Below, one piece after another: positions 4,311-41,908 of a DNA stretch of 64,000 bases. The notes beneath the pieces are model-generated. The model ran no database searches and was not told the DNA's origin. It saw only the letters and a list, made by a program, of their open reading frames with translations. Source of the DNA: Synechococcus sp. PCC 6312 (GTDB lineage: Bacteria > Cyanobacteriota > Cyanobacteriia > Thermosynechococcales > Thermosynechococcaceae); contig NC_019680.1 of NCBI RefSeq assembly GCF_000316685.1, forward strand, positions 1,117,501 through 1,181,500, written 5' to 3'. A program made the translations under genes and the position numbers. Position 1 is the stretch's first letter, and every line of letters begins with the position of its first letter.

Positions 4311-4832
4311 ATGCAGCGTTCTTGGTTTGACCAACTTCCTGAGACTCACCGTTCTGCCATTCGCAATCTATTCCCGGATTTGCGCCATCGCCCGGTTGAG
4401 GATTGGCACCAGGCCGTGTGTGATTATTTCCTTGCTAATTCCCTCAGTCCGTTTCCGTCCCAAACGGCGGTGTGGCGGCAATTTCGCAGTTTTGAACGCC
4501 TGGAGCGACAACGGGAGGCTTATCAGATTGCGGGGGAGGTCTGTGCGGCGGGGGAAACGGAGGGGCTGCTGGAGGCAAGTGAGCGAATCTTGCTGGCCGA
4601 GTTGCTCTTTGCCGCTGAGGAGTTCCGCTCGGAAGATTTGAGTCCGAAGGATAGAACGCGGGCCTTGCGAGATTTGGCAGCAGCAAAGAACGGTCTCAGT
4701 AATTCTCGGAAAACGGATTTGGAGCTAAAGCATAAGGTTGAGGCGAAGTTGACAGACCTGGAGAAAACCCGCCAAAAGCTTGACCCGGAAACCCTGCGAG
4801 TGGTGATGGAGGAACTGATTGGAATCCTCTAG
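4311..4832 (+). CDS. small terminase subunit (DUF3486, Mu gp27-like)
   Basis: A 173-residue helical protein at the gp27 position. It begins with LPETHRSAIRNLFPD, then VCDYFLANSLSPFPSQTAVWR and a long alanine/glutamate-rich helical region, as in DUF3486 proteins that act as small terminase subunits and recognise phage DNA for packaging. It overlaps the large terminase gene by 14 bases. Identification rests on the family pattern and the neighbour. Confidence 0.8.
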   Translation: MQRSWFDQLPETHRSAIRNLFPDLRHRPVEDWHQAVCDYFLANSLSPFPSQTAVWRQFRSFERLERQREAYQIAGEVCAAGETEGLLEASERILLAELLFAAEEFRSEDLSPKDRTRALRDLAAAKNGLSNSRKTDLELKHKVEAKLTDLEKTRQKLDPETLRVVMEELIGIL

Positions 4833-6165
4833 CCTGATTGAGCTTTACCCCTATCAGAAGCGATGGTTGACCGATGCCAGCCGCTTCAAGATTGGGATGT
4901 TTTCTCGTCAGACTGGCAAAACGTTTACCACCTGCCTGGAGATTGTGCTGGACTGCCTGAAAACGGAAGCAGAAGGGGGGCGGGCCCGATGGGTGATCCT
5001 TAGCCGGGGAGAACGCCAGGCCAAGGAAGCGATGGATGAGGGCGTGAAGCGGTTTTTGAAGCTCCTCAATGTCCTATTTGAGGCCCACGATTACGACTGG
5101 GAGGGCAGTTTTAAGGCTCTGGAGGTTGAGCTTCCCGGTGGCTCAAAAATTACGGCTCTCCCGGCTAACCCAGACACGGCCCGTGGGTTTTCCGCTAACT
5201 GTTTCTTAGATGAATTTGCTTTCCATAAAGACAGTCGGGCAATTTGGCAGGCCCTGTTTCCGGTGATTTCCAAGCCAGGCCTGAAGCTCAGAATCACCAG
5301 TACCCCCAACGGCAAGGGCAATAAGTTCTACGAGCTAGTTACCGCTGCCGAGGAAAGACGGGATGAAACGCCTTGGAGCTTGCACCGAGTTGATATTTAT
5401 CAAGCCGTGGCCGATGGGTTGCCCCGTGATATTGAGCAACTCCGCAAAGCCTTGAATGACCCGGATTCCTGGAGCCAGGAGTTTGAACTGGAGTGGCTAG
5501 ATGAGGCGAGTGCGTGGCTGACCTATGAGCTAATCAATGCCGTTGAGCATTCGGATGCTGGCAAGCCTGACCTCTACACCCATCAGCCGGTTTATCTGGG
5601 GTTAGACCTAGCGGTGCGCCGGGATTTGTGGGTGGCCACGGTGCTGGAGCCAGTTGGGGATGTCCTGTGGTCTCGGGAAATTGTCGCCAAGCGGCGGCCC
5701 AGTTATGCCGAGCGGGAGGCGATTGTTGTAGGGCTGTTTGAGCGGTATCGGGTGGGGCGGTTGTGTATTGACCAGACGGGGCTGGGTGAGGATATTACTG
5801 TCCGATATCAGAAGCTGTTTGGCGAGTTTCGGGTCGAGGGGATTTTGTTTACTACGCCCAATAAGCTGGTGCTGGCTAATGGGATTAAGGAAGCCTTTGA
5901 AGACCGCAAAATCCGCATCCCCATTGACCCGCAACTGCGGGAAGACTTGCACAAAATCAAGAAAATTGTCACCCCAACAGGAGCGATGCGGTTTGATGCC
6001 GATTCAGATAGCCAGGGCCACGCTGACCGCTTTTGGTCGTTGGCCTTGGCAATTCAGGCAGCCAGTTCCCCGGCGGCTCCGATTGAGTTTCACGCTTTAG
6101 AGCCAGATGCCCCGGATTTGACCGGCTGGGCTGATGAATTGTCGCTGATCGGAGGGGGTTGGTAA
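4819..6165 (+). CDS. large terminase subunit (Mu gp28-like)
   Basis: A 448-residue packaging motor. The ATPase half shows a Walker A-like SRQTGKTF at about 29-36 and Walker B FLDEF at about 129-133, followed by the coupling motif STPNGKGN. The C-terminal nuclease half has the acidic positions of the RNase H fold: LGLDLAVRRD, RLCIDQTG and DSQGHADRFWSLALA. It would cut and pump phage and flanking host DNA into the prohead. The start is TTG inside the preceding gene. The portal ATG overlaps the stop. Confidence 0.9.
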   Translation: MESSSLIELYPYQKRWLTDASRFKIGMFSRQTGKTFTTCLEIVLDCLKTEAEGGRARWVILSRGERQAKEAMDEGVKRFLKLLNVLFEAHDYDWEGSFKALEVELPGGSKITALPANPDTARGFSANCFLDEFAFHKDSRAIWQALFPVISKPGLKLRITSTPNGKGNKFYELVTAAEERRDETPWSLHRVDIYQAVADGLPRDIEQLRKALNDPDSWSQEFELEWLDEASAWLTYELINAVEHSDAGKPDLYTHQPVYLGLDLAVRRDLWVATVLEPVGDVLWSREIVAKRRPSYAEREAIVVGLFERYRVGRLCIDQTGLGEDITVRYQKLFGEFRVEGILFTTPNKLVLANGIKEAFEDRKIRIPIDPQLREDLHKIKKIVTPTGAMRFDADSDSQGHADRFWSLALAIQAASSPAAPIEFHALEPDAPDLTGWADELSLIGGGW

Positions 6166-8867
6166 TGTTTCCTCACGTCCAGGTCAAGGCCCCTAGTTTC
6201 TCTGAAATTGCCACCGTTGACGGCGAGCGGGACATTACCCGGAGTTGGCTGGGGGAATTGCTCGACTCTCAAGACCCGATTGTGCGGTTGCGGGGGCACG
6301 GGCGGCTGGAGATTTACGACAAGGTTTTAGAGGATTGGCAGGTTCACAGCACGTTCCAGCAACGGCGGCGGGCGGTGACTCGCTATCGTTGGGAAGTTTC
6401 TCCCGGTTCCAGGCCCAATCAAGAACCCGGCCGGGCCGAGAAAATGGCGGCGGACTTTATCCGGGCAGTTTTGGACTCGATCAACTGGGATGACATCACC
6501 GATAAGAAACTCTACGGCGTGTTTTACGGCCATTCTGTAGCTGAGTGCATGTTTGCTCGGGATGGCAAGCAAATCATCCTGGACGATACGAAAGACGGGA
6601 TTCGAGTCCGTGACCGGAAGCGGTTTGTTTGGGATAAGAATTTTGGCTTGCGGCTGCTCACCCGTGAAAAGAGCCTCTACGGTGAACCGCTGCCCCCCTG
6701 CAAGTTTTGGGTGTTCAATACCGGCGGCGACCACAGTGACGACCCCAATGGGCGTGGTTTAGGCAGTTGGCTCTATTGGCCTGTGCTGTTTAAGCGGGAG
6801 CAAGTCAGGCTGGAACTGCGGTATTTAGATAAGTTTGCCGGGGGCAGTTTAATCGGCAAATATCCACCGGGGGCAACGCTGGCCCAGGTAAAAACCCTGA
6901 AGGAAGCGATGCAGCAACTCCGGTCTGGGGGCGGGGCGGCAATCCCTGAGGGGATGATGGTCGAGGTCTTGCAAGCCTCGGCCGCAGCCAGTTCCTACAG
7001 TGATTTTCAAGACCGGATGGATGAGTCCATCGCCAAGGTGGTACTGGGACAGGTGGGAACCTCGGAGGGCGTGGCAGGCCAGCATCGGGGTGAGATGCAG
7101 CATGATGTCCGGCAGGACTTGGTGATTTCCGATAGCGATTTAGTCTGTGGCTCGTTTAACAGGCAAGTGGTGAAGTGGCTCACCCATTGGAACTTTCCCG
7201 GTGCTGTGCCCCCCCAGGTCTATCGCAAAATCGAGAACGACCCCGACCCAAATACCCAGGCCGACCGGGATACCAAAATCATTGGGCTTGGCTTTGCTCC
7301 GACTCTGGATTATGTCAAAGACCAGTATGGCGAGGGCTTTATTGGGGCGGGTGAGAAGGGTGATGGGGCGGGCGTGCCAGCGACGTTGCTCCCCAGCCTG
7401 GTGCAGGTGATTACGGCGGTGGCTGGAGGACAGATTACAGCTACGGCGGGGCGGCAAATCCTGGTCAATACGATCCCTGGAATTACGCCGGAGATGGCTG
7501 AAGCAATGGTCGAGGAGCCACCCCAAGAGCAAAGCTTGGATTCTCAGCTTCAGGGGGCGTTAGGGGGTGATGGCGCTGCCCCGAAAGATACTCAGCAACC
7601 TCAAGACCCACAGCAGGGGGATGCAGCGTTCAGTGCCTTGATTGACCAGATTCAGGGGTTGGTTGAGCAGCCGGAGTTTGCCCAGAAGAAGTGCAGTAAG
7701 GGCTATCCCTGTAAAAATGCTTGTATTTCAACGACCAAAAAGTGTAAGTCTCCTTTGCCAGGCCAGGCTTCGGATTTTGCGGGTTGGGTGTTGACGCAAA
7801 CACTTACAGGGGGGACTCTCAGTGCTGCCCAAAATCAAGCAGCCCAGGGCATAACTGTTGCACAAGGGCTTGGACTCGCTTCGACCCCCACAACTCCCCC
7901 ACCCCCGAGTGCATGGCAGAATTTACCCTCTACTTTGACCTTGCCCGCTCCACCTGCCCCTGCTCCAACTCCACCGCCGAAGAAGCCGAGAGCCAAGAAA
8001 GTCAAGGCTGCAACAAATGCGCCAACCCCGCCGTCTATTCCGGTAACAGGGACAGACCGACTGGCTGAGGCGATTAAAAACAACGATTTTGCGACAGTGG
8101 TGGCCGAGTCTGAGGCGATTTATCGAGATGCCAAGGCCTGGGCTAAGACCTATGTTGACGTAGCACGTGGAGATGTGGGTATTGATTTTAGAGCCGGAAC
8201 AACTCCGGGTAACTTTAATAAGCCCGACCCGATTCTCTCGGTTTTAATGCAGACCCGAACGGGTTTTGGCGACTTGCCAGAGGTGATATCCAGGCAGGAA
8301 ATGGAGCGAGAACTGGCTACAGGTAAGGACGTTCTTTATCGAGGATTCTCAAGTGAACGTGCCAGCTTCGATGCTCGATTTACTCAGTTAAAGACTGGCG
8401 AAGCCTTGGGTATGCACGGGATTTATGGGCATGGACTCTACACGGCCATTGCCAAAGGGGATGATAGCCTTGACCGTCAAAACGCCCACTCAACGGCTGT
8501 TGGCTATGATGGCCACGGGGTTGTCAAGATGATGCCCAAGGATGGCTTTGCAACCGTCAAGGACAGCCTCTTGAAAACTGAAACCAAGCGGACTCAGTTG
8601 GCGTTTGGGAAGTGGGCAACTAAAGAACGCAATAAGCTCTCTGACCAAGCCCAAGCTGATTTTGATCAGAAAGTGAAATGGGCGGAGCGGGTGATGTGGG
8701 GCGATGAAGGCAGTGCCGGCATTTCCGGCCGGTTTGCAGTTCTTAAAGGCTACGACATGGTTGATATTTCCGGCGTTTCCTATGATTCGAGCTACCGACT
8801 GTTGCTTAATCGCGCCAAGGTAAAAATTCAAGATGAGCGGGTTTCTCCCCGTGGAAAAACGATTTAA
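6165..8867 (+). CDS. portal protein (DUF935) with Cys-motif domain and ADP-ribosyltransferase-like C-terminus
   Basis: Residues 1 to about 450 are a DUF935/gp29-type portal (ITRSWLGELLDSQDPI, LYGVFYGHSVAE, FAGGSLIGKYPPGA, GTSEGVAGQHRGEMQHDV). At E504-F505-A506 the portal character ends and C510-x5-C-x3-C-x6-C begins, then a Pro/Thr-rich linker, then about 250 residues with LYRGFSSE (Arg726) and MHGIYGHGLYTA (750-761), resembling the NAD-binding signatures of ADP-ribosyltransferases. The usual C-terminal helical end of DUF935 is missing here and appears in the gene at 9281. At 900 residues it is far longer than the about 510 of Mu gp29. ATG at 6165 follows GGAGGGGG. The ART call is tentative. 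Confidence 0.85.
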   Translation: MFPHVQVKAPSFSEIATVDGERDITRSWLGELLDSQDPIVRLRGHGRLEIYDKVLEDWQVHSTFQQRRRAVTRYRWEVSPGSRPNQEPGRAEKMAADFIRAVLDSINWDDITDKKLYGVFYGHSVAECMFARDGKQIILDDTKDGIRVRDRKRFVWDKNFGLRLLTREKSLYGEPLPPCKFWVFNTGGDHSDDPNGRGLGSWLYWPVLFKREQVRLELRYLDKFAGGSLIGKYPPGATLAQVKTLKEAMQQLRSGGGAAIPEGMMVEVLQASAAASSYSDFQDRMDESIAKVVLGQVGTSEGVAGQHRGEMQHDVRQDLVISDSDLVCGSFNRQVVKWLTHWNFPGAVPPQVYRKIENDPDPNTQADRDTKIIGLGFAPTLDYVKDQYGEGFIGAGEKGDGAGVPATLLPSLVQVITAVAGGQITATAGRQILVNTIPGITPEMAEAMVEEPPQEQSLDSQLQGALGGDGAAPKDTQQPQDPQQGDAAFSALIDQIQGLVEQPEFAQKKCSKGYPCKNACISTTKKCKSPLPGQASDFAGWVLTQTLTGGTLSAAQNQAAQGITVAQGLGLASTPTTPPPPSAWQNLPSTLTLPAPPAPAPTPPPKKPRAKKVKAATNAPTPPSIPVTGTDRLAEAIKNNDFATVVAESEAIYRDAKAWAKTYVDVARGDVGIDFRAGTTPGNFNKPDPILSVLMQTRTGFGDLPEVISRQEMERELATGKDVLYRGFSSERASFDARFTQLKTGEALGMHGIYGHGLYTAIAKGDDSLDRQNAHSTAVGYDGHGVVKMMPKDGFATVKDSLLKTETKRTQLAFGKWATKERNKLSDQAQADFDQKVKWAERVMWGDEGSAGISGRFAVLKGYDMVDISGVSYDSSYRLLLNRAKVKIQDERVSPRGKTI

Positions 8868-8877
8868 GGAGATATGA

Positions 8878-9291
8878 ATGGACGCAAATCTAAAAAAGTT
8901 TTTTGCTGAAAACGGATTGGTTAATCAGCGGGGCGAGACTGTTGCCCCCCCGGATGATGATGTTGAGGGCTGGAAGCGGAATTATCGAGCCTTGATCCAG
9001 TGCTGGAACTTTATGCTGGATGAACAAGAGGCGGCTGTTGAAAATCGCCGGGCCAGCAAGTATTTGATGGGACTAAATTCTATCGGTTACGACTTTATGG
9101 ATGTGGAGGCAATGCTGAAACGCCACGGGCTAAATCCCAAGCAAGTGGAGCAAGAGATTTGTCAGAAGTTAGGTTGCCCGACCCTTGATAAGCGTAATGC
9201 CCAAAACAGGGAGTTTATGAAACGAATGGCTGCCCGCGATGGTGAGGAGCCTGGTTTTGTTGATGATTGGGAGGACGAGGATGAAGATTAA
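8878..9291 (+). CDS. small acidic protein after the ART-like domain (possible inhibitor or cargo)
   Basis: A 137-residue soluble protein with a strongly acidic tail (DDWEDEDED). AAGGAG lies six bases before the ATG at 8878. No family recognised. It sits between the ART-like end of the portal gene and the gene holding the displaced portal C-terminus, overlapping the latter by 11 bases. An immunity protein for the ART-like domain is a reasonable guess from position, size and charge, but nothing in the sequence proves it. Confidence 0.6.
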   Translation: MDANLKKFFAENGLVNQRGETVAPPDDDVEGWKRNYRALIQCWNFMLDEQEAAVENRRASKYLMGLNSIGYDFMDVEAMLKRHGLNPKQVEQEICQKLGCPTLDKRNAQNREFMKRMAARDGEEPGFVDDWEDEDED

Positions 9292-9802
9292 ACTACCTGA
9301 ATCGGTCACGCCCCAACAGTTCCAACAGATTGCCCCGGTGCTGATTCGAGCAATTTTGGCAGAGGGTTTTGGCGGTTGGGGCGGTAAAACCGATGGCCTG
9401 ACGTTTGCCGTTGCCAATGGTGAAATTACCGGCCAGTTTCGGGATGGACGGGGGCTTTACACCTATCGGCTGTGGCAAGAAAAGGGGCAGTGGCAGCGGG
9501 AGTTTGGCCCGATTGCTGGGGTGGAAGATATTAACTCACCCGAATTTGCGGCCCCTGACGCTCCTGAGCCTACCACTGCTGACCAGTTTGTAGCCCAGTT
9601 GCGGGACTCGGCCGGTGAGGTGATTGGGGGTTGGACTGACCAGATTAAGGAACTGCTAGAAGACACCACCGACCTGCCGGAATTTGCCGCCAAACTTTAT
9701 GACCTCTACCCGGATTTGCAGGGGGAGGAATTGACAGCGGTCATGGGTGAGGCGATGCTGGCAGCGAGTTGGGCCGGGGCGTTTGAGGCACAGGATGCCT
9801 GA
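9281..9802 (+). CDS. displaced portal C-terminal domain preceded by a cassette-end domain
   Basis: 173 residues in two parts. Residues 1-87 are homologous to residues 1-85 of the gene at 15608 (shared LPE-x-TP-x-Q, IxPxLxxxIL, GxF-xG, KGxW/EW, GV and the end EFAA). From E88-F89-A90-A91 the rest (AGEVIGGWTDQIKELL to LYPDLQGEELTAVMGEAMLAASWAGAFEA) looks like the helical C-terminus that normally closes DUF935 portals. I infer that this gene is the downstream half of an interrupted portal gene. ATG at 9281 follows GAGGACGAGG. Confidence 0.7.
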   Translation: MKIKLPESVTPQQFQQIAPVLIRAILAEGFGGWGGKTDGLTFAVANGEITGQFRDGRGLYTYRLWQEKGQWQREFGPIAGVEDINSPEFAAPDAPEPTTADQFVAQLRDSAGEVIGGWTDQIKELLEDTTDLPEFAAKLYDLYPDLQGEELTAVMGEAMLAASWAGAFEAQDA

Positions 9803-10937
9803 GGTTAATTACGCCCGTCTCCCCTTTGCCGATGCCATTGAGTTTTTTCGAGGCAAGGTCAACGCCGATACGGATCGCTGGGATGACATTTGGCAGGAGC
9901 AGCATGACACTCAGTTTGTGGTGGCCGGGGCCAAGGGAGCGATTCTCCAGGATTTTCGAGAGGCGGTGGAGAAAGCCATTGCTGAGGGCATGAGTCGGGC
10001 GGATTTTTTGCAACAGTTTGACCAGATTGTGGCGACCAGGGGCTGGGACTATAAAGGCGGTCGGGATTGGCGAGCCAACCTGATTTACGGGACGAACCTG
10101 AGAACGGCTTATGCGGCGGGGCGACATCAGCAGCAAACGGAGCCAAGCCAGTTAAAACGCCGTCCCTACTGGGGGTGGCAGCACGGCGATACTCGCAACC
10201 CAAGGCCCTTGCACCTGGCGTTAGACGGTAAAGTTTTTCGGGCTGACGACCCGTTTTGGCAGACTATGTACCCTCCCGCGGACTGGGGCTGTCAGTGCCA
10301 GGTGGTGAGTTTGTCAGAGCGGGATTTGCGGCGGTTGGGTAAGGACGAGCCGGATATTCCGCCGATTGTCGGGGGGATTATGTCAGCCTTTGACCCGAAA
10401 ACGGGAACGATGTTGGCGGCAAGGGTAGAGGCGGGAGCGGGCTGGGATTATGTGCCTGGCCAGTCCAATATCCAGCAACGGCGGCAACAGGTTCTGAAGC
10501 GGTTAGACCCGGCGTTGCAAGGGCAGATAATGGCAGAAGTCCAAGGGCCAAGTAATTTATCTGGTACAAATCAGGGACAGATTCGGGCTGGAAATACGAT
10601 GGCTGGTAGAACTCCTCCTCCTGGAATTGTGAGAAATTCGAGGTTTGTAAGCCGTCATTTACCTCAAGGCAGAGATGCTCAAAAACTTTTGCAACAAGGG
10701 AAGGCGGCCCATGTTTTCTTGGATGAAGCCACAATGAGTCGGGTTGAGTCTGACCTGCTTGCTCGTGGAGAATTTGCTGGTACTGTGCGGGGGCATGACC
10801 GCTATGGACTTGGCTACCCAGAGCCTATTGGGTATAGAATTGCCCCAGATGGGGAGAGGCAATCGCTATATTATGCCGAACTGAAAGTTAAAGATGGAGA
10901 ATACCATGCCGTCCCTCGAAACAAGCCTGCCACCTGA
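9795..10937 (+). CDS. MuF / SPP1 gp7-type head protein with toxin-like C-terminal domain
   Basis: Residues 1 to about 250 are a MuF head-morphogenesis domain: YGTNLRTAYAAGRH at 98-111, RPYWGW, HLALDGKVFRADDPFW and the PPADWGCQCQV cysteine pair at 160-170. After a linker, residues about 275-380 form a separate domain (SRFVSRHL, AAHVFLDEATM, GTVRGHDRYGLGYPEPIGYRI, LYYAELKVKDGEYH) resembling toxin ends of MuF polymorphic toxins known from temperate phages. MuF proteins ride in the capsid, so the tail domain could be delivered with DNA. A small gene overlaps its end. The catalytic activity is unknown. Confidence 0.85.
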   Translation: MPEVNYARLPFADAIEFFRGKVNADTDRWDDIWQEQHDTQFVVAGAKGAILQDFREAVEKAIAEGMSRADFLQQFDQIVATRGWDYKGGRDWRANLIYGTNLRTAYAAGRHQQQTEPSQLKRRPYWGWQHGDTRNPRPLHLALDGKVFRADDPFWQTMYPPADWGCQCQVVSLSERDLRRLGKDEPDIPPIVGGIMSAFDPKTGTMLAARVEAGAGWDYVPGQSNIQQRRQQVLKRLDPALQGQIMAEVQGPSNLSGTNQGQIRAGNTMAGRTPPPGIVRNSRFVSRHLPQGRDAQKLLQQGKAAHVFLDEATMSRVESDLLARGEFAGTVRGHDRYGLGYPEPIGYRIAPDGERQSLYYAELKVKDGEYHAVPRNKPAT

Positions 10938-11172
10938 TTGGGTCTTTATTGAAACTTGGGTCGATGCCACATCTCGCATTCCCTATGTTTTGATGGTTGT
11001 GGCAGATCAAAAAGGCAACTATAAAATTTACGACCCCAAGGAAAACTATAAGTCCATCCTTGAAAGCAATCGTTACGAGGATGTTGAGGAGTTTTTGCTT
11101 GAGGATGAGTATGACCTGGTGGGCAAACGCTTTAGCGATCAGGTTTTAACGCCCCCGCAACTGGCAGCGTAA
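10906..11172 (+). CDS. candidate immunity protein for the MuF toxin-like domain
   Basis: An 88-residue acidic protein (92 if the ATG at 10894 is used). The ATG at 10906 has GGAG six bases upstream. The sequence has FIETWVDATSRIPYVLMVV, a beta-rich centre and the acidic helix YEDVEEFLLEDEYDLV. It overlaps the end of the MuF gene by 32 bases, which is the usual toxin-immunity layout. No family recognised, and the immunity role is inferred from position and size only. Confidence 0.55.
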   Translation: MPSLETSLPPDWVFIETWVDATSRIPYVLMVVADQKGNYKIYDPKENYKSILESNRYEDVEEFLLEDEYDLVGKRFSDQVLTPPQLAA

Positions 11173-11618
11173 TGACCACCATCCGAGTCACCTTTGAAGA
11201 TTCTGGGGTTCAGAACGCCCTGAATCAACAGGCCAACCGCTTAGGGAACCCCAGAGAAATGCTTGCCGATATTGGGGCCCACATGGACATGAAAACCCGG
11301 ACTCGGATTCGACAACTCGGACAACCCCAGGATGCGGTGACAACACTGGATGGGCAGGCCTGGGCCCCACTGGCAGAGGCGACCATCAAGCACAAGCAAC
11401 GTAAACGCAAGAAGGAGCGGAAGTTGCAGCAGGATGGGGAATTACTGGGGACGATTACCTATCAAGCCAATTCGCAGCAGGTAGAAATTGGCTCTGGGGC
11501 GAAGCATTCGGTGTATCAGCAATTTGGAACCAAAAATATCCCAGCCCGGCCGTTTTTGTTTGTGACAGCCGAGGACGAGGCAGAGATCGGCGAGATTGTC
11601 CGGGACTTTTTGTCTTAG
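11172..11618 (+). CDS. virion morphogenesis protein (Mu gpG / tail completion family)
   Basis: A 148-residue protein of the Phage_tail_S / Mu gpG family. It shows an N-terminal strand IRVTFEDSG, the helix MLADIGAHMDMKTRTRI, the characteristic WAPLAEATIKHK, a basic loop, and the closing IGSGAKHSVYQQFGTKNIPARPFL. These proteins finish head or tail assembly. It overlaps the immunity candidate by one base, and its TAG stop is embedded in copy 2 of the operator motif. Confidence 0.85.
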   Translation: MTTIRVTFEDSGVQNALNQQANRLGNPREMLADIGAHMDMKTRTRIRQLGQPQDAVTTLDGQAWAPLAEATIKHKQRKRKKERKLQQDGELLGTITYQANSQQVEIGSGAKHSVYQQFGTKNIPARPFLFVTAEDEAEIGEIVRDFLS

Positions 11619-11635
11619 ACTTTTGTCCTGTTGTT
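11615..11635 (+). promoter_or_regulatory. repeated phage operator/promoter motif, copy 2
   Basis: Identical over 21 bases to the copy at 1898 (TTA then GACTTTTGTCCTGTTGTT). It starts within the stop codon of the gpG-like gene and ends 47 bases before the next start, so it probably drives the tail-fibre-like genes 11683-13265. Confidence 0.6.
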
Positions 11636-11682
11636 GGGCAGAGGATTAGGGAGTTGACTGGGGGAACAGTCTGGAGAAGGGT

Positions 11683-12036
11683 ATGACATTACTTGAGGGA
11701 GTTACACCAGAGGGAACAACTAAGGCAATCCGCGTTAATTCCGAGGGTCGAAGCCTAAATCCGGTTGTTTCGTTGATTTCCACAGGCCCCACTCAAACCG
11801 CCAGCCTTGGAACAGATTGGACGGCTCTCGCCGCTGGGGCCTGTAGCCAAATTACCCTGCAAAATGTGACGGGGGCGACAATTAGTTACCGCCTGGGGGA
11901 GGCAGCCACCGAGTTTGATTTGCCGACCAATTCTTCCGTTTTACTGCCCTGTTTAGCGAACTCAAGTGAGTGGCAAATCCGGCGCAAGGATACCAGTAAC
12001 ACTCGGGTCACGGTTCAGTTTTTGAGGGTGGGATAG
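11683..12036 (+). CDS. beta-rich virion protein, unknown
   Basis: A 117-residue protein, threonine/serine/valine-rich and predicted beta. It opens with a segment (IRVNSEGRS) similar to small virion or collar proteins and contains ITLQNVTGATISYRLGE. No enzyme motif. It is the first gene after operator copy 2 and is followed directly by another structural-looking gene, so a role as an accessory virion or fibre protein is likely. Exact function unknown. Confidence 0.55.
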   Translation: MTLLEGVTPEGTTKAIRVNSEGRSLNPVVSLISTGPTQTASLGTDWTALAAGACSQITLQNVTGATISYRLGEAATEFDLPTNSSVLLPCLANSSEWQIRRKDTSNTRVTVQFLRVG

Positions 12037-12867
12037 ATGCAGGGCTTTGGTATCCCGATTGTTGCGTCCCCGGTTCTTTCTCTTTTGGAGGCAGACCGAA
12101 TCACGATTTCCAATAATTCCAGCGACACTGCCAACGATCTTGACTTTTCGGCAGGCCGGTCGGTCTTGCAAAATGCCGCAGGGGATCGCCGAGTCGTCGT
12201 TTTTCCTGCGCCAATTACCAAGCAGATTGACGCAAGCTGGGCCTTGGGAACAAATCAAGGCGGATTGGATGCTGGCTCGGTTGCCGATGGCACTTACCAT
12301 GCGTTTGTGATATTCAACTCGGTTTCTGGCTTGACCAATGCAATTTTCAGCAACTCCTTGACTCCGACTTTGCCCGTTGGGTTTGGCTGGTGGCGACGGG
12401 TGGGCAGTTTCACTCGGGTGTCCAGCGTAAACAGATCCTTTGCTCAGTTTGGGCGCTATTTCCAGTTTGCTACGAGGATTCGCGCCCTCGACAACTATGC
12501 GGTCAGCACAAGCGGCGAGTTGATTGTGCTGCCTGTTCCCACAGGTCTTTCTGTGCGGGCGCACGGTACACTCAGCTTGGGCGGCGGGCCTGCGGATTCA
12601 TCAAATTTACTGGTGCTGGTACTGGGCGGTAATCTGACAGGGACTATCCCTGATGCCCGGCCAACCCTGGGCACATTTGGCGCCACCGTTGGCCATCGCC
12701 GGGATGCTTCGTACTCGGGGATTGCGACGGGTGGGGGGACTGTTTCGGAGATTGTCCGCACGACAAACACGAGTGGGCAACTGTATTTTCGCCGGAGTGG
12801 CACTTATCAATCCGGCAGTGCCCAAACCACTTTTCAAATCCACGGTTACGAGGACGTTTTGTTGTGA
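12037..12867 (+). CDS. tail-fibre-like virion protein
   Basis: A 276-residue beta-rich protein. The central stretch (GSVADGTYHAFVIFN, NAIFSNSLTPTLPVGF, WWRRVGSF) is a pattern often seen in phage fibre and appendage proteins, where a conditioned value is reported as text-like repeated strands. Glycine/serine/threonine-rich elsewhere. Together with 11683 and 12864 it forms a short block under operator copy 2 inside the head genes, an unusual place for fibre genes. Call based on pattern, not on a named domain. Confidence 0.55.
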   Translation: MQGFGIPIVASPVLSLLEADRITISNNSSDTANDLDFSAGRSVLQNAAGDRRVVVFPAPITKQIDASWALGTNQGGLDAGSVADGTYHAFVIFNSVSGLTNAIFSNSLTPTLPVGFGWWRRVGSFTRVSSVNRSFAQFGRYFQFATRIRALDNYAVSTSGELIVLPVPTGLSVRAHGTLSLGGGPADSSNLLVLVLGGNLTGTIPDARPTLGTFGATVGHRRDASYSGIATGGGTVSEIVRTTNTSGQLYFRRSGTYQSGSAQTTFQIHGYEDVLL

Positions 12868-13265
12868 TTTTTTATGACCCCGAAAACCCAGAAAGAGGTG
12901 CGGTCGCCGTTCCTCAAGGCGATTTTCAAACACCAATAGCCGAAGAAGATTTTGAAACTTTAGTGGCAGGATTGGAGCCTGAAACCGCACCGCCAAATTG
13001 GGATGGGTTCAACGGGGCAATTTTGTCTGATGTGCGGCTGAATCAGGTTCAAGGGGCGGCGTTATCGGTGGCTCCAGCGGCAGCAATTGCACTTCCGGCG
13101 GCTCTGTCTCAGGTGAGTACCAATGGTGTGACAGCGTTTGGCTTGGTGTTTGGTGCGGTTTGTGGGGCGGGCGGGGCAACGACTGAGGATCGCCAGGCCT
13201 GGGCTGATTTGGCCGAGTCTTGCAATTTGCCTGCCGAGTTTGTGGCAGTTGTGCGGGGCGAATAG
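12864..13265 (+). CDS. hypothetical prophage protein
   Basis: A 133-residue protein starting at GTG and overlapping the fibre-like gene stop. An N-terminal acidic region (YDPENPERG, IAEEDFETL) is followed by an alanine-rich hydrophobic middle (APAAAIALPAAL, FGLVFGAVCGAGG) and a short helical end. No domain recognised. It may accompany the fibre-like protein, as tail-fibre assembly genes often do, but there is no direct sign of that. Confidence 0.5.
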   Translation: MIFYDPENPERGAVAVPQGDFQTPIAEEDFETLVAGLEPETAPPNWDGFNGAILSDVRLNQVQGAALSVAPAAAIALPAALSQVSTNGVTAFGLVFGAVCGAGGATTEDRQAWADLAESCNLPAEFVAVVRGE

Positions 13266-13318
13266 CAAAAACTCCCCAGATTGCTCCAGGGAGAAGTATT
13301 TGCGGTGAATTGTTGGAA

Positions 13319-13732
13319 TTAGGCAGCTAACCCCCAACCCCCAAGGGGGAAAGTTACGGCAAGAGCGGCGATTAACTGGTCTTTGGTAAGGCGGCCATAG
13401 CGGGGGATTTTGTGGCTACTGGCTAAGGCTTTTAACTGGCGAATCGTGAGATTGCTTAGGTCGTCGTGGGGAAAAAGAACCAGATTGTCAGGATTTGGGG
13501 TGGAATCGGGGACTGGGGCGGTTGTATCGGTTTGGGCGGGGGTTGTAGTGTCTAAATCGTTGACGGCGGTTATGGGGGCTTCTGGTGGGGTATCTCCCAA
13601 GGGGGCGGTTTCAAGGGTGGCAATTTCGGCTTTTTCGGCTGCGATTTTGAGTAAGAGCCGCTTGTACTGGCGCAGTTTTTTCAGGGCTTCTTTGGCGGCT
13701 AAGATTTCGTTGTCGAGTTGTTGAATGTCCAT
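13319..13732 (-). CDS. coiled-coil protein with C-terminal Rho-N/SAP-like domain, copy 1
   Basis: About 137 residues on the opposite strand. An N-terminal coiled coil (LDNEILAAKEALKKLRQYKRLLLKIAAEKAEIATLE) is followed by a Pro/Thr/Asp-rich linker and a 35-residue end domain, LTIRQLKALASSHKIPRYGRLTKDQLIAAL with an intervening basic loop, which matches Rho N-terminal/SAP-like nucleic-acid-binding helices. The ATG at 13732 has AAGGA upstream. The end domain is a clear paralogue of that in the next gene. Opposite orientation within late phage genes marks it as a moron-type cargo gene. Confidence 0.65.
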   Translation of the reverse strand: MDIQQLDNEILAAKEALKKLRQYKRLLLKIAAEKAEIATLETAPLGDTPPEAPITAVNDLDTTTPAQTDTTAPVPDSTPNPDNLVLFPHDDLSNLTIRQLKALASSHKIPRYGRLTKDQLIAALAVTFPLGGWGLAA

Positions 13733-13805
13733 TGTGAAAATCCTTTTGGGTAGTGGTGTGTAGGGAAGGGGCCGAGAGGTGATCAGGCTCCCAGCCGGTG
13801 GGAGA

Positions 13806-14375
13806 TTAGGCGGTGAGAGCAGCAACTAACTGGTCTTTGGTCATCCGAGAGTAGCCTTTGACCTTGGCGGCTTTGGCGGCGGCTTTTAATTCCCGAATGT
13901 TCATGGCGGCGTATTGGGCGTTGAGATTGGCTTCTTGGGTAGCGACTAATTGGGCAGTGGTGGCGACTAACTCGCAGAAGTTGTGATGCTCGGCAGCTAA
14001 TAAGGCTTTGAGAGCGTCAGTTCTGGGAGTGGGACGAACCACTTCGCAATCTACGGCCACGGCTTCTTCTTCGTAGGCAGGAAGATACCCAGCGATGGCT
14101 ACGGGAGCTAAGGCGTAGGAATTGGGAAAGACGGTAATGGCTACGGTATCAATAGCGGAACGAGCGACGGTGATGGCGGTGCAGCCGTGGGCGTTGGCTT
14201 CGAGAGTGTCAACCCAATTGTCGAAAACGACTCGAGCGTCCCGACCGGCTTGGATGGTGGCTTGACCGGCCTCGTGAATAACAACGGCAGCGGCAATGGC
14301 GAAACGAGCGGTGGAGCAAGCAATATCAACAATGCCGAAGGCGACATCAATACCTGCGTAGAGTAAATCAAACAT
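13806..14375 (-). CDS. protein with C-terminal Rho-N/SAP-like domain, copy 2
   Basis: 189 residues: an alanine/valine-rich N-terminal part (about 1-130, possibly partly membrane-associated but without a clear helix break), a helical middle, and the C-terminal MNIRELKAAAKAAKVKGYSRMTKDQLVAAL region, homologous to the end of the gene at 13319. Both genes share the leader GATTTTCAC just before their ATG, suggesting duplication of a whole unit. Rho itself is absent from most cyanobacteria, so this domain here is more likely a DNA/RNA-binding module than part of Rho termination. Function unknown. Confidence 0.6.
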   Translation of the reverse strand: MFDLLYAGIDVAFGIVDIACSTARFAIAAAVVIHEAGQATIQAGRDARVVFDNWVDTLEANAHGCTAITVARSAIDTVAITVFPNSYALAPVAIAGYLPAYEEEAVAVDCEVVRPTPRTDALKALLAAEHHNFCELVATTAQLVATQEANLNAQYAAMNIRELKAAAKAAKVKGYSRMTKDQLVAALTA

Positions 14376-14711
14376 GGTGAAAATCTCAAAAACTGTAGAG
14401 GCAGTCGTTTGTTTTGTGGAGCGGGTGACTGGAACCCTTGGAAAATACTTGGCCCCGGTTTTACAAGCGGACTGGCTACCGGCTTTGGTTGGGTGGGAGA
14501 TTTTCTTGCCCCTCTCCCTAGGACACCCTGGCTATCAGGGTCACGGTCTGAGCCGTGGAAGCCGTTTCCGGCGTCGGGGTGTGTCCCCTTGCATATCTAA
14601 ACGTTAAACCCGCAAACCCAGAACCGTCAAGGGGTTAAAGATCAGGGTTGCTTATGGAAGGGTGTGCTTTGGGCATTTTCCGTTGATGTATTGTATGCAA
14701 AACCCCGATCC
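14376..14711. other. non-coding stretch with adjacent small hairpins
   Basis: No convincing gene. Two short stem-loops follow one another: ACCCTG-gctat-CAGGGT at 14523-14539 and CACGG-tctgag-CCGTG at about 14542-14557, then GGAA-gccg-TTTCC. They lie between the divergent minus-strand gene and operator copy 3. They could be transcription-stop or structured leader elements, but no poly-T follows. Short open frames in this stretch look accidental. Confidence 0.35.
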
Positions 14712-14732
14712 TTAGACATTTGTCCTGTTGTT
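14712..14732 (+). promoter_or_regulatory. repeated phage operator/promoter motif, copy 3
   Basis: TTA followed by GACATTTGTCCTGTTGTT: 20 of 21 bases match copies 1 and 2, and the GAC-N4-GTC dyad is intact. Ends 30 bases before the protease ATG, so it likely drives the protease, scaffold and capsid block. Confidence 0.6.
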
Positions 14733-14762
14733 GAAACGGGGACGGGGCGGGATTTTAGGGGT

Positions 14763-15608
14763 ATGAAGCCGATTAAATTACCGTTTCTCGTCAAAGGCAC
14801 CCATCCGGCCACTAACGGCCGCTCCTATACGTTTGGCGATTCTGAAATTGAGGGTATTCGGGAATACGACCCCACCCTGCGCCGGGCCCCGATTGTGATT
14901 TCCCACGACCTGAAGGGCCTGGATGAGGCTGAAATCCTAAAAAACAAGAAATTGTCCGATGAATTGGCGTTTGGGTTGATTGAAGGTGTGGTACTGGAAA
15001 ACGGCGTTCTCAAGGCGAAGTCCAACCGTTATGTCCCCAAGATTTTGGATTGGTTCAAAGAGGGCCGGATTGCGCAGATTTCAGCCAAGTTTTTCTCGCC
15101 AACCGACCCGCAAAATCCCAAGCCGGGGAAATATTACCTCCGGCACGTTGCCCTGTTGGGGGTGAGTCCCCAGGCGATGGAGAATTTGCCAGGCCCTGAG
15201 TTTGCCCAATTTAATCCTGAAGGAGAAGCGTCTGTGGAGATTGAATTTGCCGTGAAAGGTGCTGGTGCTGGCAAGAAGAAGAAGTGTCAAAAGGGCTGGA
15301 GTTGCGGGGCGGGGTGTATTTCCCGGACGAAGCGGTGTCCGAGTGCCTTGGGGAGTGAAGCAAAAAGTTACGCCGGGTATTTAAGGCGGCAGCTTTCTCG
15401 AATCGGAGTCAAAAACAAAGACGAGAGGCAGGAGTCCAGAACCGAAGCTGCGGCATTTGAAGACTTAATTGCAGGGCCTGGCAAGAAAAATAGCAAGGCG
15501 AATCAGAAGTCCCGCACGGCAGCGATCAAGCAAGCAAATAGCTCAGAGGTTAAACGTGCAGCCGCCGAATACCGTCGTGCTGAACGCCGCTTAGGGAGGA
15601 ATCAGTAA
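14763..15608 (+). CDS. head maturation protease (Mu gpI-like), C-terminally replaced by Cys-motif cassette
   Basis: Residues 1 to about 160 match the Mu gpI protease: RSYTFGDSEIEGI, DPTLRRAPIVISHD, ELAFGLIEGV, ISAKFF and YYLRHVALLGVSPQAM. At E161-F162-A163 the family match ends. A glycine/lysine linker and C175-x5-C-x3-C-x6-C follow, with the same cysteine spacing as in the portal gene, then about 100 basic, alanine-rich residues. The scaffold half normally fused behind the protease is encoded by the next gene. ATG at 14763 lies 30 bases after operator copy 3. The stop overlaps the next ATG. Confidence 0.8.
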   Translation: MKPIKLPFLVKGTHPATNGRSYTFGDSEIEGIREYDPTLRRAPIVISHDLKGLDEAEILKNKKLSDELAFGLIEGVVLENGVLKAKSNRYVPKILDWFKEGRIAQISAKFFSPTDPQNPKPGKYYLRHVALLGVSPQAMENLPGPEFAQFNPEGEASVEIEFAVKGAGAGKKKKCQKGWSCGAGCISRTKRCPSALGSEAKSYAGYLRRQLSRIGVKNKDERQESRTEAAAFEDLIAGPGKKNSKANQKSRTAAIKQANSSEVKRAAAEYRRAERRLGRNQ

Positions 15609-16363
15609 TGGTTAATCTGCCCGAAAACCCCACGCCAGAGCAACTCAACAAGATTATCCCCATCCTGGTCAAAGAAATCTTGAGGAGTGGCGAGCGGAAT
15701 TACAGAGACGCAATCGAGAACATTACCTGGCAGCGCAAAGGCGAAGGCATCGAAGGCACGTTCGAGACGGGTAAAGACGTTTTCGGTTATTCCCTGATGC
15801 CCAAGGGTGAGGAATGGTACCGGGATATGTGGGTGATTTCGGGCGTGGACGATGAGGGCGCAGAATTTGCGGCCGCCGACGGCGATGAGGATTTGGACTT
15901 TGAGATTACGGGAGAGGGTATGGACGCAAACGACCGGGCGGTGATTGAAAGTATGGCCCTGCAAGAACGGGAGCAGGCCCTGGCAGAGAAGGAATTGGCG
16001 TTTGCGTTGCGGCAGGAGTCGTTGGCGGTGATTCAGCCGTTGGTGGGTAAGAAGATTCCCCCGGCCTGGGAGGATGACCTGGTGCAATTTAGAGCGGCGA
16101 TTGGGGCGGCAGCGGGGCCTGGGGATTTGGAATTTAGCCAAGGCAGTTACAGCCCGGTCGCGTTTTTCGATCGGTTTCTGGAATCGTTGCCGGAGCAAAT
16201 CGAATTCTCGGAAATTGCGGGTGGCGATGGGGCTGTGGTGGGAGCCGACGACGCTCAAGCCATTGCCAATGCGGCCATCGAATTCCAGCAAGAACAGCGG
16301 TCTAAGGGCATTGAAATTTCGACTGTTACGGCCGTTGCTCACGTTATTGGGAAGGACAAGTAA
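15608..16363 (+). CDS. scaffold half of gpI, preceded by a cassette-end domain
   Basis: 251 residues. Residues 1-85 are homologous to the N-terminus of the gene at 9281 and end at the same EFAA (86-89). The remainder is scaffold-like: a long charged helix (ALQEREQALAEKELAFALRQESL), a helical bundle and the closing ISTVTAVAHVIG seen at the end of Mu-type protease/scaffold proteins. Protease residues 1-163 plus this remainder give about 325 residues, close to Mu gpI (361), which supports a split gene. GGGAGG precedes the start. Confidence 0.7.
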   Translation: MVNLPENPTPEQLNKIIPILVKEILRSGERNYRDAIENITWQRKGEGIEGTFETGKDVFGYSLMPKGEEWYRDMWVISGVDDEGAEFAAADGDEDLDFEITGEGMDANDRAVIESMALQEREQALAEKELAFALRQESLAVIQPLVGKKIPPAWEDDLVQFRAAIGAAAGPGDLEFSQGSYSPVAFFDRFLESLPEQIEFSEIAGGDGAVVGADDAQAIANAAIEFQQEQRSKGIEISTVTAVAHVIGKDK

Positions 16364-17133: not shown

Positions 17134-18057
17134 ATGGCAGACTACCCTTTTGTTGAACAACCCCAATACACGGCGATTGCCCTGGCTTATACCAACCAGG
17201 CCATGATTGCTGACATTATTAGCCCCCGGATTCCAGTTACCGAGGAATCTTTTAAGTGGCAAAAACACAAACTGGAAGACGGTATGACGATAGTCGACAC
17301 CCGTGTCGGTCGCACGTCTCGCCCAAATCAGGTTGAGTTCGCAACCACAGAAGAAACGTCTTCCTGTGAAGATTACGGGCTAGATGACCCTATCCCCCAA
17401 AAGGATATTGAGAACGCCCCTAAGGGCTACGACCCGCAATCCTATTCAACCGAGATGCTGACCGAGTTAATTCAGATCGACCGCGAAAAACGCGTGGCGG
17501 ATCTGGTCTTTAATCTCAATACCTACCCCAGCGCCCAGCGACAGACCCTAGCTGGTTCCAGTCAATTTTCCCACCCCGACTCCAAGCCGATTGATGTGAT
17601 GCTGAATGCCCTCGACGAAATGGTCATGAGGGCCAATACAGCGGTGTTTGGGCAAAATACCTGGACTAAGTTTCGCCGCAATCCTGCTGTGGTTAGCGCG
17701 ATTAATGGCAAAAACAGCAGTGAATCCGTCACTCGTCAGCAAGTTGCAGAATTTCTGGAAGTGGATCGGGTGATAGTTGGCGCAAGCTGGCTGAACTCTG
17801 CGAAAAGGGGACAGTCCGCATCAATGACCCGCCTCTGGGGCAAGCATATTGCTCTGCTGTATCTCAAGCCGTTGGCGGCTTACACCAGGGGGATTACGTT
17901 TACGTTTACCGCCCAACACGGACAACGGGTTGCCGGGACGATTCAAGACCCCCATATCGGACTGAAAGGTGGCGTGATTCAGCGGGTCGGCGAATCGGTT
18001 AAAGAAGTGATCGCAGCTCCTGATTGTGGCTATTTCTTCCAGGATGCGGTGGCCTAA
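17134..18057 (+). CDS. major capsid protein
   Basis: 307 residues with the layout of Mu-type and P22-like major head proteins: YTNQAMIADIISPRIPV, a long acidic loop, IDREKRVADLVFN on the spine helix, and the P-domain segment DRVIVGASWLNSAKRG followed by LWGKHIALLYL. It comes after protease, scaffold and decoration genes, as expected. AGGAG precedes the ATG. Family assignment rests on position and general pattern; the exact fold class cannot be told by eye. Confidence 0.8.
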   Translation: MADYPFVEQPQYTAIALAYTNQAMIADIISPRIPVTEESFKWQKHKLEDGMTIVDTRVGRTSRPNQVEFATTEETSSCEDYGLDDPIPQKDIENAPKGYDPQSYSTEMLTELIQIDREKRVADLVFNLNTYPSAQRQTLAGSSQFSHPDSKPIDVMLNALDEMVMRANTAVFGQNTWTKFRRNPAVVSAINGKNSSESVTRQQVAEFLEVDRVIVGASWLNSAKRGQSASMTRLWGKHIALLYLKPLAAYTRGITFTFTAQHGQRVAGTIQDPHIGLKGGVIQRVGESVKEVIAAPDCGYFFQDAVA

Positions 18058-33161: not shown

Positions 33162-34871
33162 TCAGCGCACCACTAGTTTGGCAAATAAACCCGGCTCACC
33201 CATCCATTCTTTTTCCAACAGACGCACTTCTAATTCCAATAAACGGCGATAGGTGAGGGAGTAATTCGTGACGGGATGTTTCCACTTTTCTTGCTTGCGT
33301 CGTTCATAGGCATCAATAAATTTCCGGCGGCCACTCTCACTCAGCCAAACTTGAGCACCCCGACATTCAAAATCTGTACTGATGTCCCATTGCTGGCGAT
33401 TAATTGAAGCCACGACAACCATATCCACCAAGGGTACTCGGAAAATTTCCATCAAATCTAGGGCTAAGGGGGCAGCTTGAGAGCGGGGTTGATGGTAAAA
33501 GCCCAGAGCCGGCTCCAGGCCAACGGTGAGAATTCCATTCATGACATCTTTGAGCAGCAGGGCATAGCCAAAACTGAGCAGCGCATTAAATGGGTCTTTC
33601 GGGGGGCGGCGACTGCGGCCGGAAAATTGCAATTCTGCTGGAATGCGCTCGGTTAATAGGGCGGGCAAGGCTGAAAAATAGAGAGAGGCAAGGTTCCCTT
33701 CCAGGCCCAGAAGTGATTCCAAAGAGTTGACTGGCTCGATTTGTTTCAGCACGGCCTGCATTTGTTCAATAATCGGGGTGACGGTTGTCAGAACATCAGA
33801 TTTGCCCCGTTGGCCCCGCATGAGAAATTTGCGCTGGCTTTGGCCTCGACAGGTGACGAGTAATTTGGCTAAATGTAGACAGACTTGCGGATCACTGAGG
33901 GCTTGATATTGGCGAATCCGGCGTTGAATACTGCCTTGGCGAGAATCAAAACTGCCGATATAGCGACCGCCCCCGGTAATAAAATGCACCCCAATATCGC
34001 GACTGGCACAAAAGTGCAGGGCCTGGGTCGAAATTTGCGAAAAGCTGTGGAGAACGACTTGACTCACCCGTTGGGCCGGTAATTTTTCCTCAGGCTGGTC
34101 TCGATGGCTGATCTTGATCTGCTCCCCGGATTTACCAACTTTCGAGCCTGGGGTGAGGACATGAATTATCTCCCGGTCATCATCTCGGGGAAAAAGTCTG
34201 AAGGTGGCACGGTCGGGGTCTTGGGTTAAACGGGCTTCTTCCGGTAGACAGACAGGGGCAAGGGAACAACTGGCACAGAGTTTTTCATTGGTTGCTACAG
34301 GTGGGCGTTGGAGAGATTGGCGCAGGGCCTGGGCCTGTTGGATGGCGGTCAGGACTTTTTGGCGGCCGGCAGTTGTGAGGGGAACTCTTACCATGACGTT
34401 ATCGGCATGATAGCGAATTCGACCTTCCTGGATCGGAATATTTAACGCCTCTTCAATCAGATAGGCATAGGCTAAGATTTGGAGTTCGTCACTGGCCCAG
34501 GCCTGGGGTTGTTTATTCTGATCTCGGTAGCAGCGTCCCCGCTTGTGTTCGTAGGGAATGACCTGACCATTGCGAGTTCGCAGGGCATCCACCCGGCCCC
34601 GTATCCCCAAGGTTTCGCTTTCCAGATTGAGTTCTTCCCAATCTTCATCTTCTTGTTTTTGCAATTCCACATGAAGTCGTCGGCCGGCAAACACGGCGGC
34701 ATCTTGGGTATAAAGTTCTTCGACTTCTTCTAGGTAAAACAATCGCGGGCAGTAGGCCAGGGCATGGAGGGCAGAGACTCGGATCGTTGGGGTAGTTGGC
34801 GGGGCCTGGGTGGGGAGTGCAAGCATGATCTGAGGAGGAATGGCAACACGCTTAAGGTAGCTTGCGTTCAC
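33162..34871 (-). CDS. cas4-cas1: Cas4-Cas1 fusion
   Basis: 569 residues if started at the GTG at 34871 (the ATG at 34826, residue 16, is an equally good start). Cas4 part, about 30-215: Cys41 in LAYCPRLFY, RVDAL (Asp95), YEHKRG (Glu108, Lys110), and the cluster Cys199/202/208, which with Cys41 should bind an iron-sulfur cluster. Cas1 part, about 230-569: Glu391 in LEGNLASLYF, His460 in FYHQPRS and Asp472/Glu475 in LDLMEIF. Cas4 selects and trims prespacers by PAM, and Cas1 integrates them. Fusions of this type are typical of the Dev/MYXAN group. All key residues are present. Confidence 0.95.
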   Translation of the reverse strand: MNASYLKRVAIPPQIMLALPTQAPPTTPTIRVSALHALAYCPRLFYLEEVEELYTQDAAVFAGRRLHVELQKQEDEDWEELNLESETLGIRGRVDALRTRNGQVIPYEHKRGRCYRDQNKQPQAWASDELQILAYAYLIEEALNIPIQEGRIRYHADNVMVRVPLTTAGRQKVLTAIQQAQALRQSLQRPPVATNEKLCASCSLAPVCLPEEARLTQDPDRATFRLFPRDDDREIIHVLTPGSKVGKSGEQIKISHRDQPEEKLPAQRVSQVVLHSFSQISTQALHFCASRDIGVHFITGGGRYIGSFDSRQGSIQRRIRQYQALSDPQVCLHLAKLLVTCRGQSQRKFLMRGQRGKSDVLTTVTPIIEQMQAVLKQIEPVNSLESLLGLEGNLASLYFSALPALLTERIPAELQFSGRSRRPPKDPFNALLSFGYALLLKDVMNGILTVGLEPALGFYHQPRSQAAPLALDLMEIFRVPLVDMVVVASINRQQWDISTDFECRGAQVWLSESGRRKFIDAYERRKQEKWKHPVTNYSLTYRRLLELEVRLLEKEWMGEPGLFAKLVVR

Positions 34872-34948
34872 AGATAAATCATGGATCTTGTGCGACTGAC
34901 GAATAAAGCCAAGTCATATGCTTGTCGATCCCTCCTAATTGAACTTAC

Positions 34949-35463
<515 letters not shown>

Positions 35464-35572
35464 TTATACAGATCGAATAATAATTAACTAATGTTTAGCG
35501 TGGGTGATTAGGGTGAGTGAGGTGTCCATGTACAAGTGCTAATCGGTAGAAATATCGATGATTGGGCGATCA

Positions 35573-37209: not shown

Positions 37210-37244
37210 TTTAGTTTGCTCCGTTGATCTTAGTTGTTGTTAGC

Positions 37245-41212: not shown

Positions 41213-41628
41213 GTTGCAACCTCGATAGCTTCAATTAGCTTTTGTGGGGTATAAATGGGAACAGTTTGGTCTGTAAAATCTTCTGGATTACGGGTCACGA
41301 TTCCATCTAACTGAGATGCGGCCGCCGCCGTATATTGAATTGCATCTTCAAAATCCTTGAAATCACCAGTAAGAGCCTGACGAATTACTGCATCATCAAC
41401 AGTGACAATTTGACAAAAAGAAACAATATGCCTCAAGAAATCAAGAGCTAAAGATTTTCCCTTACTCTTGCGAAGAATGTAGAAAAGATCGCTAAAGCTA
41501 GACGCTGAAACATAACCGATTAGCGTTTTCTGTTCAGAAAGTGTCAAAATGCGATCGCTATCCCTAAAAAATGGCTCTCTTTCTAATGCGACATCAAGTA
41601 AAACATTGGCATCAATCAAGATTTTCAC
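41209..41628 (-). CDS. PIN-domain toxin inside the cas operon
   Basis: About 139 residues from GTG at 41628, which overlaps the antitoxin stop. VKILIDANVLLDVALEREPF carries the first PIN aspartate, then Glu/Asp-bearing helices (DFLRHIVSFC, DFKDFEDAIQYTAAA) and the closing ASQLDGIVTRNPEDF with the last acidic residue. VapC-like PIN toxins are Mg-dependent RNases. The stop overlaps cas3's ATG by four bases, so it is translationally coupled to both its antitoxin and cas3. A HIP1 octamer lies at 41551. Confidence 0.88.
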   Translation of the reverse strand: MKILIDANVLLDVALEREPFFRDSDRILTLSEQKTLIGYVSASSFSDLFYILRKSKGKSLALDFLRHIVSFCQIVTVDDAVIRQALTGDFKDFEDAIQYTAAAASQLDGIVTRNPEDFTDQTVPIYTPQKLIEAIEVAT

Positions 41629-41888: not shown

Positions 41889-41908
41889 AAGTCTGCTCCT
41901 TAAACTAT

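Follow-up and report, generated by a model that had tools for sequence, protein, structure and literature searches.

Related candidate cargo cassettes split the portal and protease-scaffold genes of a cyanobacterial Mu-like prophage at predicted maturation-protease sites

Results

The window analysed here, a 64,000-nucleotide stretch of the 3.72-Mb genome of Synechococcus sp. PCC 6312 (NC_019680.1, positions 1,117,501 to 1,181,500), carries a Mu-like prophage. In the head region of this prophage, the genes for the Mu-like portal (gp29/PF06074) and for the gpI-type protease-scaffold protein are each divided over two open reading frames (ORFs), with profile matches spanning both halves of each. 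The halves are separated by related cassettes with a common order: a cysteine (Cys) module with the pattern C-x5-C-x3-C-x6-C, a variable effector, a stop codon, optionally a small ORF, a start codon and a domain of 85 residues. Both ends of the cassette abut the tripeptide E-F-A (Table 1).

Table 1. Features of the prophage head region, in window coordinates (E, expectation value; aa, amino acids; L numbers, loci used for comparison)
Feature	Position	Strand	Evidence and remarks
Terminase	4819-6165
Portal core and linker	6159..7673	+	ORF 6159-8867, first ATG 6165; Portal_Mu E 1e-91 over residues 50-391
E-F-A, predicted maturation-protease site	7674..7682	+	sequence GAGTTTGCC; motif statistics
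Cys module, left end of portal cassette	7683..7793	+
Effector region	8052..8867	+	related to effectors of L082 (27%, E 1e-18) and L022 (24%, E 1e-10)
137-aa ORF, candidate immunity gene	8878..9291	+	63% identical to ORF in L023
85-residue domain, right end of portal cassette	9281..9541	+	start overlaps stop of 137-aa ORF
EFAA, predicted protease site	9542..9553	+	in low-confidence linker of model
Detached portal C-terminus	9554..9802	+	phrog_113 418-517; C-terminus profile E 4.5e-32, own sequence among seeds
MuF protein with DUF6972 tail	9798..10937	+	PF04233 E 2e-21, PF22319 E 1e-41; second cargo-like fusion, without Cys module
88-aa ORF, candidate immunity partner of DUF6972 tail	10906..11172	+	position
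Neck protein	11172-11618
Protease gene	14763-15608
Maturation-protease half	14763..15242	+	phrog_976
E-F-A site	15243..15251	+	sequence GAATTTGCC; further E-F-A at 15198-15206
Linker and Cys module, left end of protease cassette	15252..15383	+
Short basic tail, candidate small cargo	15384..15608	+	sequence
Scaffold gene	15608-16363
85-residue domain	15608..15862	+	TAATG overlap with stop of protease gene
EFAA, predicted protease site	15863..15874	+	sequence
Scaffold half	15875..16363	+	phrog_976 261-393; 29% identity to intact L080 protease-scaffold, E 8e-14
Capsid	17134-18057		named by eye

The portal profile phrog_113 (PHROGs) is spread over two genes, matching at positions 45-411 in the gene at 6159 and at 418-517 in the gene at 9281 (E 6e-7). 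Furthermore, the detached tail of a second prophage, L080 (G468, from the same family as the source organism and a different genus), matches the portal of phage B3 (E 5e-6), and the detached tail is true portal sequence. Likewise, phrog_976 is spread over the protease gene (34-273) and the gene at 15608 (261-393, E 4e-10). The protease-scaffold gene of L080 is uninterrupted, and in the Mu record the annotated start of Z lies within I. A preliminary description of this DNA had proposed that the missing portal C-terminus and scaffold half continue in the genes at 9281 and 15608. These matches bear the proposal out, and the sizes it gave for the rejoined proteins, 589 and 325 residues, follow from the coordinates.

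When Mu-like portal loci were scanned with separate profiles for the portal core and C-terminus, the two lay in one ORF in 87 of 132 loci and in separate ORFs in four, with the C-terminus undetected in 41. This set is redundant, and 27 of its loci are short, their flanks being about 1.5 kb; 21 of the short loci are among the 41 without a detected C-terminus, and at such loci a distant detached C-terminus could escape detection. It includes 12 of 18 further class-level Portal_Mu places, the six omitted being weaker (E 1e-23 to 3e-11). The four loci with separate ORFs are all cyanobacterial, comprising the window and three other prophages: L080, L021 (G306) and L082 (G548, contig JAAUPA010000034, a Leptolyngbyaceae metagenome-assembled genome). 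Among the loci scanned for Cys modules, the same four are those with a Cys module on the portal ORF. Of the best 80 of 145 IMG/VR portal loci, 70 had both parts in one ORF, 10 had no detected C-terminus and none had separate ORFs. One scan of genome contigs returned a single locus, on the contig of L082. In L022 an InPase domain sits between portal core and C-terminus within a single ORF. In a separate observation, a 976-aa ORF of L086 (G438) has a second portal C-terminus fused to a MuF front, and the portal gene there keeps a weaker copy of its own.

The cassette ends are conserved as protein. The two 85-residue domains of the window are 33% identical and the two Cys domains 44%, and in a leave-one-out test each of five members of the 85-residue family could be found again with a profile built from the remaining four (E 4e-14, 2e-20, 7e-9, 0.0011 and 3e-12; best unrelated ORF, E 0.49). 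The preliminary description was right to report related cassettes, with a Cys domain on the left and a homologous domain on the right, interrupting both genes, and its E-F-A sites, cysteine pattern and EFAA ends lie where it placed them; the length of the right-hand domain is 85 residues. At the DNA level, 17 of 19 bases are the same at the right ends (9542-9560 and 15863-15881; blastn E 0.037) and 81% of 21 bases at the left ends (7684-7704 and 15277-15297). Protein conservation may account for this likeness at both ends. The chance that the four EFAA codons agree is 0.026 under prophage codon usage. A recent duplication of the cassettes was considered as an explanation and dropped. Of the first eight Cys modules to be gathered, seven have [DE]FA at most 22 residues upstream, compared with a mean of 0.42 and a maximum of 4 for random positions.

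An AlphaFold2 model of the gene at 9281, built from 7 sequences (mean predicted local distance difference test score, pLDDT, 65), has one helix and four strands, then a low-confidence linker holding EFAA, then three helices. A fold search with the model of 9281-9799 gave no confident match (best PDB match by Foldseek, E 0.13); the best Z score, 6.3, with a root-mean-square deviation of 2.7-2.9 over 63-66 residues, was to a kinase-like protein and a cystatin-type scaffold, within the range of common arrangements. There was one viral match, to a 1393-residue protein (E 8e-5).

Many uninterrupted relatives read straight through an F-A site at the same place. With identical junctions or scaffold starts counted once throughout, 59 of 72 distinct intact portals have F-[AS]-[EDQ] within the 47 residues that precede the C-terminal domain, as against a mean of 4.2 and a maximum of 10 in 500 shuffles. 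FAE stood at 49 of the 72 junctions (shuffles, 1.5) and never in the sampled core windows, and the exact [DE]FA form at 26 of the 72. In 45 distinct scaffold halves, a set made up of those with the LG..PPA..G landmark and more than 120 residues beyond it, the motif occurred 159 times compared with 21 in shuffles, at least three times in 30 of the 45; versions with L and I were not enriched. Portal linkers also have more 3-mers in common with the scaffold of the same phage than with those of other phages (34 phages; 0 of 2000 permutations). In Mu, the portal has a single LSA, at residue 429, and gpI has five beyond residue 160, a count reached in 0 of 5000 shuffles. In the excerpted account of the 2025 Mu structure, the final 124 residues of the portal (gp29) are absent, which in its authors' view supports cleavage by protease I (PMC11915804). 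Taken together, the motif statistics and the Mu precedent support E-F-[AS] as a recognition motif of gpI-type proteases, such that E-F-A would mark a maturation-protease site. The preliminary description had read E-F-A as the target or footprint of an insertion; this is not supported, since intact Mu-like portals and scaffolds often contain F-[AS]-[EDQ], and we do not regard E-F-A as an insertion scar.

Comparison of the window with L080 shows which parts of the cassette change. Identity is 44% in the portal core, 44% in the Cys module, 55% in MuF and 44% in the gene of the 85-residue domain and portal tail (E 8e-44), whereas effectors, small ORFs and MuF tails have no significant similarity (best E 0.25, 0.26 and 0.04). 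HExxH is present in the L080 effector and absent from that of the window. In this pair the frame of head genes is constant and the cargo part differs, which is the pattern of polymorphic toxins. The guanine-plus-cytosine (GC) content of the effector and small ORFs is 0.47-0.51, as against 0.57-0.59 in portal core, tail and MuF. In this terminase-portal phage the fusion of an effector region to the portal is clear. This region is without a family match in profile and fold searches, and its label as ADP-ribosyltransferase-like in the preliminary description comes down to a resemblance of motif; its model (pLDDT 41) is unusable for fold assignment. As a separate observation, a homologue of the 137-aa ORF lies at L023:9074-9600, outside any portal gene and near a transposase-like ORF, followed by a remnant of an 85-residue domain with a stop.

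The two domains also occur more widely in cyanophages and cyanobacteria. In L022 and L021 both lie in one chain, in the order 85-residue domain, E-F-A, Cys module, effector. Nodularia phage 2AV2, Planktothrix PaV-LD, Nodularia kac65v151 and Aphanizomenon CL131 have related 85-residue domains ahead of Cys stretches. Profile comparison linked the two 85-residue families with a probability of 91 when ten rows were used (at most 3 in the best eight of 40 column-shuffled controls), and weakly, at 19, when one side had two rows. Five of six named phage records contain Cys modules, 2 to 7 in each, as do 8 of 388 cyanobacterial genomes at E 1e-4. The modules of S-CBWM1 stand at the start of short proteins, and the 85-residue domain was not found there in the stretches examined. 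L219 has a free-standing Cys-effector gene and, after it, an 85-residue domain (weak, E 0.015) that is fused to a maturation-protease front (phrog_976, E 3e-5). Searched alone, the 85-residue domain had no convincing relative in IMG/VR, phages or plasmids, and the L080 gene that carries it had none in IMG/VR; the L022 region with both domains reached isolated cyanophages. StcE-type peptidases on plasmids, at E 0.05 among the matches listed for the Cys module, were judged to be chance. One further protein, L180 (CL131 gp048), has 1811 residues with four Cys motifs and one 85-residue domain and is encoded before the tape measure gene.

Discussion

Given these data, we think it probable that the cassettes are exchangeable units of virion cargo, set into head genes at sites where the maturation protease would process them. 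The portal or protease precursor would carry cargo into the procapsid; alternatively, the cargo could travel behind the 85-residue domain, which probably acts as a leader, bringing any sequence placed after it into the procapsid before being cleaved away. The gpI-type protease would free the cargo by cutting at E-F-A or F-[AS], trim the portal tail and dissect the scaffold, so that leader, tail and scaffold are removed. The freed cargo would stay with the DNA and be ejected with it, while the small ORF would protect the producing cell. Because neither would stay attached in the mature particle, portal tail and scaffold may sit on separate proteins, and splitting the portal would cost nothing there, since the tail is removed if processing is as in Mu. 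The separation of protease and scaffold would mirror Mu, with its Z inside I, and the overlapping stops and starts at both 85-residue genes fit coupled production. That the two halves of each gene must work together in the particle, as the preliminary description supposed, is unlikely, given that the portal tail is missing from mature Mu and that Z has its own start.

Several points weigh against this reading. Cleavage, packaging and toxicity are steps that we infer, and the motif pattern was defined after the junctions had been inspected. In scaffold halves Y-[AS]-[EDQ] is enriched too (29 vs 8), and F-[AS]-[EDQ] is over-represented in the protease domain as well (63 vs 7), where it falls at few fixed positions, 40 of the 63 in one conserved block before KK[RI]SA. 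The sharing of 3-mers within own pairs may come from composition and relatedness; L083 is mismatched, with FAA in the linker and FAE in the scaffold, and the linkers of L084 and L056 have none of the listed motif forms. The portal cassette of L082 is the exception that has no [DE]FA site before its Cys module. The low GC of the cargo is a soft sign, the Pro-rich linker being at 0.585 and other phage genes starting from 0.52 (0.52-0.55). Finally, Cys modules fused to head genes are strongly linked to the F-A site and those found elsewhere weakly, because [DE]F[AS] lies at most 30 residues upstream of 11 of 18 distinct Cys modules in cyanobacterial genomes, as against 3 of 18 in named phages and 0 of 8 in IMG/VR.

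If the 85-residue domain instead bound the Cys module, the pair could bring portal tail and scaffold back in trans, and the halves would act as one. The two domains do co-occur in the same phages, and both in the window and in L080 a Cys gene is followed by a gene of the 85-residue domain. Such docking nevertheless seems unlikely to us, since L022 and L021 hold both domains in one chain and S-CBWM1 has Cys modules with no partner domain found in the stretches examined.

The preliminary description preferred a self-propagating domain-insertion element, aimed at E-F-A coding sites, that leaves two polypeptides working together. Two related cassettes with the same ends in a single prophage, and the near-identity in DNA of their right ends, speak for such an element. 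That part of the proposal stands; self-mobility is unproven, with short end similarity and no recombinase or nuclease family matched by the cassette ORFs in family searches. With F-A motifs ancestral in intact portals as well, we regard an insertion element as improbable. Decay of both genes in a dying prophage, in favour of which stands the L023 remnant with its stop, is a very unlikely account of open frames with coupled starts, of a split that recurs in three other prophages and of a gene (gene C) 44% identical to L080 over its length. Inteins have Cys or Ser at the splice start and His-Asn before Cys, Ser or Thr at the right end; the residue after E-F-A is Q or V and the right end has no such His-Asn, nor was an intein family matched at E 0.1, so although two genes with complementary halves might suggest a split-intein-like cassette and ligation, we rejected protein splicing as having almost no chance of being correct.

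On the view that the cassettes carry cargo, the window cassette looks like a permuted piece of module, joining the effector end of one unit to the leader of the next. It could have originated from a tandem array, like that formed by adjacent units in PaV-LD (L197), if a segment was joined to a head gene at F-A sites; in whatever way the join arose, selection would preserve the motif as long as the junction has to be cleavable. A broader possibility, which we put forward tentatively and think rather doubtful, is that 85-residue domain and Cys module form a general cyanophage cargo-loading system, in Mu-like prophages and large lytic phages alike, with the maturation protease as release step and with parts so interchangeable with head genes that portal tail and scaffold became passengers behind the same leader. 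We rate it lower because most modules of named phages and all those of IMG/VR are without a nearby [DE]F[AS]; in these, it would need another release site.

The closest functional parallel is phage T4, where, in the excerpted account, internal proteins and the ADP-ribosyltransferase Alt are brought to the prohead core by leaders and are cut there by gp21, at a single short motif at which it also cuts the scaffold, before ejection into the host (PMC9026906). By analogy, the cargo described here would enter as a precursor and be processed in the same way. In T4 the motif is L/I-X-E and the targeting sequence has about 10 residues, and the same excerpts describe no T4 head genes split by cargo (PMC9026906). 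In the window prophage, too, a short motif is common to scaffold, portal and cargo, with the limit that many phage Cys modules lack it. The ejection proteins of the giant phage SPN3US are similar in that propeptides are long, at 111-254 residues for most substrates, the portal among them, and in that a short motif recurs; they differ in being cut after Glu, with no exchangeable cassettes in the part of the source consulted (PMC10052503).

Effector fusions to portal and MuF are already known (PMC5512222, PMC5576092, both in excerpt), as is protease-processed cargo. Polyvalent phage proteins have effectors fused to portal or MuF, to which the InPase domain in the L022 portal may be compared; the excerpts describe no portal splitting and no Cys module, and report such proteins to be scarce in cyanobacteria (PMC5512222). 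MuF polymorphic toxins, as excerpted, have a variable tail on a head protein, as does the MuF protein of the window, whereas here the cassettes sit in the portal and protease genes, the remainder of each head gene lying downstream (PMC5576092). The cassette proteins have no N-terminal MuF domain; portal or protease precedes the Cys module, and the MuF domain is on the separate gene at 9798. Among the matches listed in a search of the open-licence PubMed Central literature, we found no description of a split phage portal or of exchangeable cassettes that divide head genes where they are processed.

If correct, the proposal that the cassettes deliver cargo explains how essential portal and protease-scaffold genes could be broken harmlessly, the breaks falling where the phage protease probably cuts. 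It would also make the Cys module and 85-residue domain sequence marks for candidate ejected effectors among the hypothetical proteins of cyanophages, and it gives a predicted maturation-protease motif for Mu-like phages, F-[AS]-[EDQ], with LSA in Mu.

Other features of the window

The DUF6972 tail of the MuF protein has a low GC content at third codon positions and is followed by the 88-aa ORF, together a second pair of cargo and candidate immunity gene; the tail is unlike that of the L080 MuF protein, and the 88-aa ORF had no match in family searches. Between the neck and protease genes, two ORFs lie on the opposite strand (13319-13825 and 13806-14375, both minus). Their C-terminal segments are alike (IREL/IRQLKA..K.P.Y/KGYS..TKDQL.AAL), and similar segments end ORFs by the head genes of L021 (3520-4107) and L085. 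Further along, a minus-strand CRISPR-Cas gene cluster was recognised by eye in the ORF list at positions 33162-42559.

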